Source: an uncultured bacterium (GTDB lineage Bacteria; Verrucomicrobiota; Kiritimatiellia; RFP12; CAIWXQ01). From it: a stretch of DNA of 55,796 bases. Both the position numbers and the translations under genes were made by a program. The stretch spans positions 1 to 55,796 of the forward strand of contig CAIOST010000120.1 in assembly GCA_903861045.1 (NCBI GenBank), read 5' to 3'. The notes beneath the pieces were generated by a model. That model saw nothing but the letters and a program-made list of their open reading frames with translations. It did not search any database and was not told where the DNA came from. Shown here one piece after another: positions 16,378-17,822 of this stretch (positions within the stretch are counted from its first letter, which is position 1; every line of letters starts with the position of its first letter).

Positions 16378-16512
16378 TTAGATCGTAAGACGCGCGCGCC
16401 CTTTACGGCGGCGGTTGGCGATCACTTTACGACCACCCTTGGTGGCCATGCGTGCGCGAAAGCCAAGCTTGCGTCTGCGTTTGATCTTGGACGGCTGGTA
16501 CAGCATCTTCAT
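16378..16512 (-). CDS. rpmH: 50S ribosomal protein L34
   Basis: A 44-residue basic ribosomal protein too short for most ORF filters. The translation starts [18 protein letters not shown] and continues [19 protein letters not shown] to RARLTI, the complete L34 pattern. It is the first gene of the rpmH-rnpA-yidD-yidC unit, which in many bacteria lies next to dnaA and the origin; no dnaA or clear DnaA-box cluster is present here. Confidence 0.95.
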
Positions 16513-16600
16513 GACAATCGTTACTCCTGCGTCGCTCGTGAAAAGAGCCCATTAGAATACCATTTTTGCGGCGCGAGTCAATGACATCGCGCAATTAATG

Positions 16601-16894
16601 CTTTCTTGGCCATGGTCTTTTCCTGAAGACCTGGTTCTGTGGACTCCCCGCCGGGCGGAATCTAGCCACAAAAAGCACAAAAGACACAAAAGAAAGCGGT
16701 TTTTTGTGATTTATGTGCTTTTTGTGGCCAACATGAATGGTCTGCACCGATCCTGCCCGTGTCCAAATCCTCTGCCAACCAACACCTCGCCACTGCTAGC
16801 ATACACAAAAGCGGCTTCTGCGGTTACCACAAAGCCCTTGCTACAGCCAACCTGCGTTAGGTGGCGCTTCAGGAAAAGACCATGCTTTCTTGGC
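16601..16894. mobile_element. MITE-like element with 18-bp inverted ends and 10-bp target duplication
   Basis: CTTTCTTGGC occurs at 16601-16610 and again at 16885-16894. Immediately inside are perfect 18-bp inverted repeats: CATGGTCTTTTCCTGAAG (16611-16628) and its complement CTTCAGGAAAAGACCATG (16867-16884). The 274-bp body has no transposase. It contains a 15-bp perfect inverted repeat (GCCACAAAAAGCACA at 16665-16679 and its complement at 16714-16728). The target-repeat plus terminal-repeat geometry is that of a non-autonomous transposon. It lies upstream of rpmH and could affect its promoter. No second copy is visible in this window. Confidence 0.7.
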
Positions 16895-17006
16895 TGCCTG
16901 GGGCCTGGCACTTCCGTAGCTGCCCGACGGAATGCTTTGACAGGATGTACAAGATTTCGCAGGATTGGTCTTCGTTATGCACCCCTTGCGACGCCCTCTG
17001 TATGCG

Positions 17007-17822
17007 ATGAATGACGATCAACCCTCCCAGGAGGCCCCAATCAACGCCGCCGCGCTGACGGCCCATTTGCGCACGCGCGTCCTGGGGCGCACGCTGCGTT
17101 GGTTGCCGGAGGTGGACTCGACGAATCGTCTGCTGGCGGAGGAGGGGGGCGAGGCGGCCGAGGGGCTGGTGGTGCTGGCGGATCGGCAGACGGCCGGCCG
17201 CGGCCGCATGGGGCGCACTTGGTTCTCGCCGGCGGGCGTAAATGTCTACCTTTCGGTGTTGCTGCAGCCGCGTGTGAGTGTGGCTTGGTTGCCGACCCTG
17301 CCGCTGATGGTCGGGTGCGCCGTCGCGCGTGCGGTGGCGGCGCTGGCCCCTGCGGTCCCCGTCCGCCTCAAATGGCCTAATGACCTGCTTGTGCATGGCC
17401 GAAAATTGGGCGGCGTACTGTGCGAGGTGCTGACCACCGCGGAGCATGAGTCCCGGGTGATCGTGGGCGTGGGGTGCAACATCAATCTGGTCCCCGCGAT
17501 GGTGCCGACGGAGTTGGCTGCCATCGTCACGTCCCTCGCGAGGGAGACCGGGCAGCGTTTTGACCGCTCCGTGGTGGTGGCGGAATGGTTGAATCAGCTC
17601 GAGACGGCCTACGCTGTCTGGTGCGAACAGGGGTTGGCCCCCTTTCTTCCGGAATGGGCGGCGCTGGATGCGTTGCACGGGCGGTGGGTACGGGTCGAGC
17701 AGCTTGGCCAGCCGCCAGCCGAGGGCGTGGCGGAGGGCGTGGACAGCGATGGGCTGCTGCGGCTACGGCAACCGGATGGTTCTCGGCGCTTGGTCTGCTC
17801 CGGCGATGCGCATCTAGTTTGA
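17007..17822 (+). CDS. birA: Biotin--[acetyl-CoA-carboxylase] ligase
   Basis: About 271 residues. It activates biotin with ATP and attaches it to the biotin carrier protein of carboxylases. The catalytic signature GRGRMGRTWFSPAG, the biotin-site segment LKWPNDLLVHGRKLGGVL and the adenylate region VGVGCNINL are all present, with the small C-terminal domain after about residue 225. There is no N-terminal helix-turn-helix, so this is a class I ligase that does not repress biotin genes. ATG 17007 starts near the conserved VDSTNR region; in-frame starts at 16965 and 16977 would only add a non-conserved tail. Confidence 0.9.
   Translation: MNDDQPSQEAPINAAALTAHLRTRVLGRTLRWLPEVDSTNRLLAEEGGEAAEGLVVLADRQTAGRGRMGRTWFSPAGVNVYLSVLLQPRVSVAWLPTLPLMVGCAVARAVAALAPAVPVRLKWPNDLLVHGRKLGGVLCEVLTTAEHESRVIVGVGCNINLVPAMVPTELAAIVTSLARETGQRFDRSVVVAEWLNQLETAYAVWCEQGLAPFLPEWAALDALHGRWVRVEQLGQPPAEGVAEGVDSDGLLRLRQPDGSRRLVCSGDAHLV

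Follow-up and report, generated by a model that had tools for sequence, protein, structure and literature searches.

What kind of element lies between rpmH and a biotin-protein ligase gene in the genome of this uncultured bacterium, what moves it, and what determines its position? The window, meaning the whole stretch of DNA analysed here (55,796 nucleotides), is contig C120 of a fragmented genome assembly of 4.73 Mb in 406 contigs, which is 89.6% complete.

The element upstream of rpmH and its family

The features of the locus are given below in window coordinates, with L and R denoting the left and right ends of the element.

16378–16512, minus strand: rpmH (ribosomal protein L34), read from the sequence, downstream of the targeted promoter
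16554–16559, minus strand: −10 box of the rpmH promoter, TATTCT, separated from the −35 box by a 16-bp spacer; congener G001 has it conserved in the form TATCTT
16576–16581, minus strand: −35 box of the rpmH promoter, TTGACT, at a distance of 29 nt from the left end of the element; conserved in congener G001
16601–16610, no strand: left copy of the 10-bp target duplication, CTTTCTTGGC
16611–16884, plus strand: MITE, 274 bp, L end at 16611 and R end at 16884, with boundaries common to at least 41 genomic body copies
16611–16628, plus strand: left terminal inverted repeat, 18 bp, CATGGTCTTTTCCTGAAG
16665–16728, no strand: inner hairpin with the perfect arms GCCACAAAAAGCACA (16665–16679) and TGTGCTTTTTGTGGC (16714–16728)
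16867–16884, minus strand: right terminal inverted repeat, 18 bp, CTTCAGGAAAAGACCATG, which is CATGGTCTTTTCCTGAAG on the minus strand
16885–16894, no strand: right copy of the 10-bp target duplication, CTTTCTTGGC, of the length typical of the family (18 pairs, see below)
16965–17822, plus strand: biotin-protein ligase gene (birA-like; PF03099, PF02237), on the other side of the element

The original prediction had described a MITE-like element with a 10-bp direct repeat at both flanks, perfect 18-bp inverted ends, a second perfect inverted repeat in the body, and no transposase. All of these structures are present at the positions listed, the length of 274 bp is confirmed, and no plausible gene was found in the body. 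The terminal-repeat pair accounts for two matches in the window, compared with 0.04 expected. On the promoter side, rpmH is followed by rnpA (PF00825), and the left end of the element faces the rpmH promoter TTGACT-16-TATTCT. Congener G001 has the same promoter conserved (ATTGACTGCTTCCGGCAAAATGGTATCTTAATGG), without the element and with a different gene upstream; this conservation supports the promoter as being real. The single-strand fold of the element is strong (z −7.6), which is explained by the terminal and inner inverted repeats, and an Rfam search of the element gave no match above gathering. Hence, a structured RNA was rejected.

Two further repeats touch this locus. The inner CACAAAAAGC hairpin is found outside the MITE in three genomes of the order (L039, L040, L041, L043, and L048), and a divergent element of 118 bp in the host genome, which has CATGGTCTTT ends, contains it as well (L217, 5800–5917); the MITE appears to have captured an older repeat here. 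In addition, the motif GGAATGCTTTGACAGGA, followed by ...CAGGATT, is common to window positions 16933–16970 and the right flank of the copy on contig C229 (L102). It scores as a promoter and may represent another repeat or a shared promoter type.

The genome search that the original prediction had proposed yielded at least 41 body matches with 83–100% identity and the same boundaries as the window element. The terminal repeat, allowing up to three mismatches, matches the genome 119 times, compared with zero matches for the reversed control pattern; individual inspection covered all but approximately 15–20 of these 119 end matches. The copies lie in intergenic DNA, and many are 97–99% identical, so the expansion looks recent. 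Many contigs stop approximately 100–150 bp inside a copy, meaning that the family broke the assembly at those points. Internally deleted derivatives of 52–93 bp keep the ends (C136:8792-8884, L123; C13:4737-4804, L009; C141:312-366, L030; C227:2384-2435, L101). Since the 55-bp derivative on C141 has the same ends and a perfect 10-bp duplication, little besides the ends seems to be needed for movement.

The target duplication was determined from the sequence directly outside 99 distinct element ends. In 18 pairs of these ends, the first 10 bp are exact reverse complements of each other, with a mean of 0.03 at control offsets; one pair matches at 9 bp and none at 8, 11, or 12 bp. The duplication is thus exactly 10 bp. 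Many of the 18 pairs re-join two contigs broken at one insertion, and the target carries G or C at its three outermost positions at either edge (SSSNNNNSSS).

Among 345 class-mates, the terminal repeat gave scattered single matches only, of which the one exact match (L128) sits within a long ORF. A search of 84,980 species genomes, with a pattern built to leave out ends that continue into the arms of this MITE, gave 21 scattered single matches; viral contigs gave two and plasmids none. An origin outside this genome was rejected on these grounds. The MITE reading stands on a noncoding body, terminal repeats, target duplications, and tens of copies: window positions 16611–16884 are confirmed as a genuine, recently active MITE with dozens of copies, confined to this genome.

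Several copies adjoin another dispersed repeat (CAGGGATGCGCCC...; GCGGCCTACAACACTAC...), namely in the flanks on C227, C274, C143, and C136 (L101, L104, L119, and L123). Its GGGCGCATCCC end resembles ISKra4 ends in class-mates (L159: GGGCGCATCCCCGTTCCA), so the repeat may represent a second MITE family derived from ISKra4.

ISAs1 ends in the same genome

The original prediction could not assign the ends of the element to any recognised family. They were indeed unnamed at that point, but matching ISAs1-family ends have now been found in the same genome. At the very start of contig C36, the ISAs1 model NF033564 gives the sole NCBIfam match (E = 9e-9, below the curated cut-off), and this match comprises only a C-terminal piece that is truncated by the contig end. 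The frame stops at position 276, whereas the repeat itself runs to 297 and finishes in ...CCAAAGGGAAAGACCATG. This ISAs1 terminus, CATGGTCTTTCCCTTTGGCG, is identical to the MITE end in the first 10 bases and agrees in 16 of 20 overall; CATGGTCTTT is identical in the MITE and in the host genome's own ISAs1 end. Contig C8 carries the same ISAs1 end (99.3% over 141 bp) next to different flanking DNA, which makes the ISAs1 element a repeated insertion sequence, and both ends finish with ...CATG.

The ISAs1 family generates target duplications of 8–10 bp. A small comparison set of 13 elements from other hosts, located on public plasmids and having recognisable ends, shows perfect 10-bp duplications and ends starting with CA. 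These traits of the family (ISRm21, ISAzs12, ISAzs22, ISAs1, and others) are shared by the MITE; compared with them, it is a 274-bp noncoding derivative with CATGG rather than CAGGG ends. Because its ends match the ISAs1 terminus of the genome and ISAs1 makes 10-bp duplications, the element is, judged from its sequence, very probably an ISAs1-mobilised MITE. Against mobilisation by an ISAs1 transposase stand the agreement of MITE and insertion-sequence ends over only approximately 20 bp and the outcome of the assembly searches, which found no complete ISAs1 copy, only at least two 3' ends.

Other partners were considered. IS231 and MIC231 of the IS4 family have ends starting with CATG, duplications of 10–12 bp, and nonautonomous relatives. 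They share the CATG ends with the MITE, but the host genome has no PF01609 transposase, with control genomes being positive; an IS4/IS231 origin was dropped once the ISAs1 end had been found. An IS256-type partner was rejected because PF00872 gave no match in the genome, and an ISLre2-type partner because PF06782 was not found, where the PF06782 control was silent too. The copy on C30 was rejected as an autonomous one: in its coding-like flank, no transposase could be recognised among the listed frames.

Promoters at a fixed distance from the element ends

Outward flanks were scanned with a sigma70 model, whose matrices are of the E. coli type and whose promoters are hence predicted ones. With this model, the −35 hexamer starts 28–31 nt from the element end at 32 promoter sites, compared with 1.2 in shuffles, and the spacer has its mode at 17. 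Promoters at this peak are found in 26 of 54 right-end flanks and in 4 of 40 left-end flanks (Fisher p = 1e-4). The asymmetry is also seen without any matrix: 63% of right flanks have a T at position 31, compared with 30% of left flanks. Among the 18 insertions verified by their target duplication, 14 have a sigma70-type promoter that points outward with the −35 box at 27–31 nt. It is faced by the R end in 12 cases and by the L end in two, one of which is the window copy. Other 5-nt windows average 1.1 of the 36 flanks in this verified set, with a minor excess (five) at 20–24 nt. The closest coding frame is oriented outward on 40 of 47 right sides, compared with 19 of 33 left sides; on the right, the median distance to its start is 113 nt.

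The evidence for this fixed-distance, oriented promoter pattern is very strong. MITE insertions at a fixed distance from promoters, mostly with the R end inward, are a new finding of this analysis. The position just upstream of rpmH, as noted in the original prediction, holds and proves to be one case of a genome-wide preference that was overlooked there.

A minor second cluster has the −35 box at 20–23 nt, approximately one helical turn nearer (C141, C149, both ends on C240, C250, and C343).

Of the two ISAs1 copies found in the genome, the one on C36 supports the mechanism proposed below, with a −35 candidate, TTGCCT, that lies 29 nt out and is paired with TACACT. Against this mechanism stand a second, overlapping candidate at 48 nt on C36 and the copy on C8, whose best promoter is located at 34 instead of 29 nt. 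For the plasmid-borne ISAs1 elements, no promoter peak was seen in the flanks: one flank only among the 13 verified insertions (L249, AT-rich) scores ≥7 at 26–32 nt, whereas the MITE insertions cluster at a fixed promoter distance. Promoter targeting as a general ISAs1 trait was rejected on this basis, and the preference seems to be particular to this lineage. No precedent for fixed-distance promoter targeting by ISAs1 was found in the part of the open-access literature that was covered.

Such a pattern could also arise after insertion. An ISAs1-mobilised MITE may have little or no target choice, with insertions elsewhere being lost and those upstream of promoters, R end inward, being tolerated or favoured. 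The intergenic location of the copies fits this explanation, as does the incomplete orientation bias (12 R and 2 L, with the window copy L-facing at rpmH). However, avoidance of damage should give a broad zone instead of a peak at 28–31 nt with most other windows nearly empty, and the 97–99% identity of many copies marks them as recent. Selection as the full explanation is considered unlikely.

Still less likely, the transposase reads DNA shape or composition, namely a GC-rich 10-bp target with AT-rich DNA 20–30 bp away, as supplied by promoters in a GC-rich genome. The target composition SSSNNNNSSS agrees with this, and a parallel exists in the IS4-family element IS231A, whose described target preference is GGGN5CCC flanked by bendable DNA. 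Shape alone does not readily account for the one-sidedness of the signal, which is seen at the R end, nor for its dependence on the order of the hexamers: the real matrix gives 28 sites, whereas column-permuted matrices average 4.4 and reach 19 at most. It also leaves the required spacer of 16–18 bp: R flanks picked by the −35 box alone have a good −10 box at this spacing in 13 of 23 cases, compared with 0 of 31 flanks picked at five control windows. Both selection and DNA shape are less able to produce a peak that is narrow, one-sided, and hexamer-ordered.

Proposed mechanism and relation to known systems

The best explanation, which we regard as likely, is a MITE moved by an ISAs1 transposase and positioned upstream of promoters, probably via RNA polymerase. 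Herein, the ISAs1-family transposase of the same genome would recognise the 18-bp ends, move the MITE in trans, and insert it with a 10-bp staggered cut. Its preferred target would be a GC-flanked 10-bp site (SSSNNNNSSS) approximately 20 bp upstream of a sigma70-type −35 box, so that the insertion would come to lie at about −56 to −65, the right end of the element facing the promoter. The positioning would come from a contact of the transposase, or of the captured target complex, with promoter-bound RNA polymerase (sigma or alpha-CTD), and at that distance the insertion would spare both gene and promoter. Because the 18-bp ends are identical, the orientation is presumably set by subterminal differences. 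Orientation bias and position could partly be due to selection.

The closest known behaviour is that of the Mutator-like elements TnGBS, ISLre2, and ISKra4 (p-MULT 3 and 4). They insert upstream of −35 boxes at a distance of 15–17 nt, with the right end facing the promoter, and duplicate 8–9 bp of the target; by analogy with Ty3, they have been proposed to contact the initiation complex of RNA polymerase (PMC3942029). The MITE resembles these elements in its fixed distance upstream of the −35 box, in having the right end toward the promoter, and in an inverted repeat beginning with C; it differs in the distance of 29–30 nt, the 10-bp duplication, and the ISAs1 partner, a different transposase family, and hence works like them without being a member. 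It is also oriented despite identical 18-bp repeats, whereas promoters flank both ends of those ISKra4 elements whose repeats are near-perfect (PMC3942029).

That a Mutator-like transposase of this promoter-targeting group itself drives the MITE is very improbable: such elements show oriented, fixed-distance insertion of the same kind (PMC3942029), and ISKra4 is common in the class, but this genome holds an ISKra4 fragment only, has no PF06782 or PF00872 match (PF06782 control silent), and differs in duplication and distance, while class-mate ISKra4 elements have the ends GGGCGCATGGCAGTTCTG and GGGCGCATCCCCGTTCCA with 8–9 bp duplications. The ISKra4 ends in related genomes (GGGCGCAT...) are likewise unlike the MITE ends, and ISKra4 was rejected as the mobiliser.

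As a separate observation, genome G345 has ISKra4-type transposases at five loci (L133 and others), each interrupted by one in-frame TAA, which suggests recoding or frameshifting, or shared decay.

Compared with prokaryotic MITEs in general, the element is typical in being short, noncoding, intergenic, and multicopy, and, by the present reading, trans-mobilised, as described for Correia, MITEAba12, BrickBuilt, and others in the portions of a review considered here (PMC10969869). The MITEs treated in those portions carry promoters, and insertion at a set distance from host promoters is not described there (PMC10969869).

Fixed-distance targeting of bacterial promoters has been documented for one superfamily, the Mutator-like p-MULT (PMC3942029). 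If the proposed mechanism is true, the MITE would provide a second case with another transposase family and another distance, so that reading the transcription machinery would be a repeatable route to harmless insertion. Ty3 of yeast offers a parallel for this route. The chances are about even that an ISAs1-lineage transposase independently evolved promoter-guided, oriented insertion via promoter-bound RNA polymerase, approximately 13 bp farther out than TnGBS/ISKra4, in which case the MITE copies would amount to a natural map of the promoters active in this bacterium. The mechanism would be testable in vitro with a small mini-element, and the transposase could serve as a tool to place DNA just upstream of active genes while leaving the genes unbroken. 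Such insertions would, in addition, mark promoters in uncultured bacteria.
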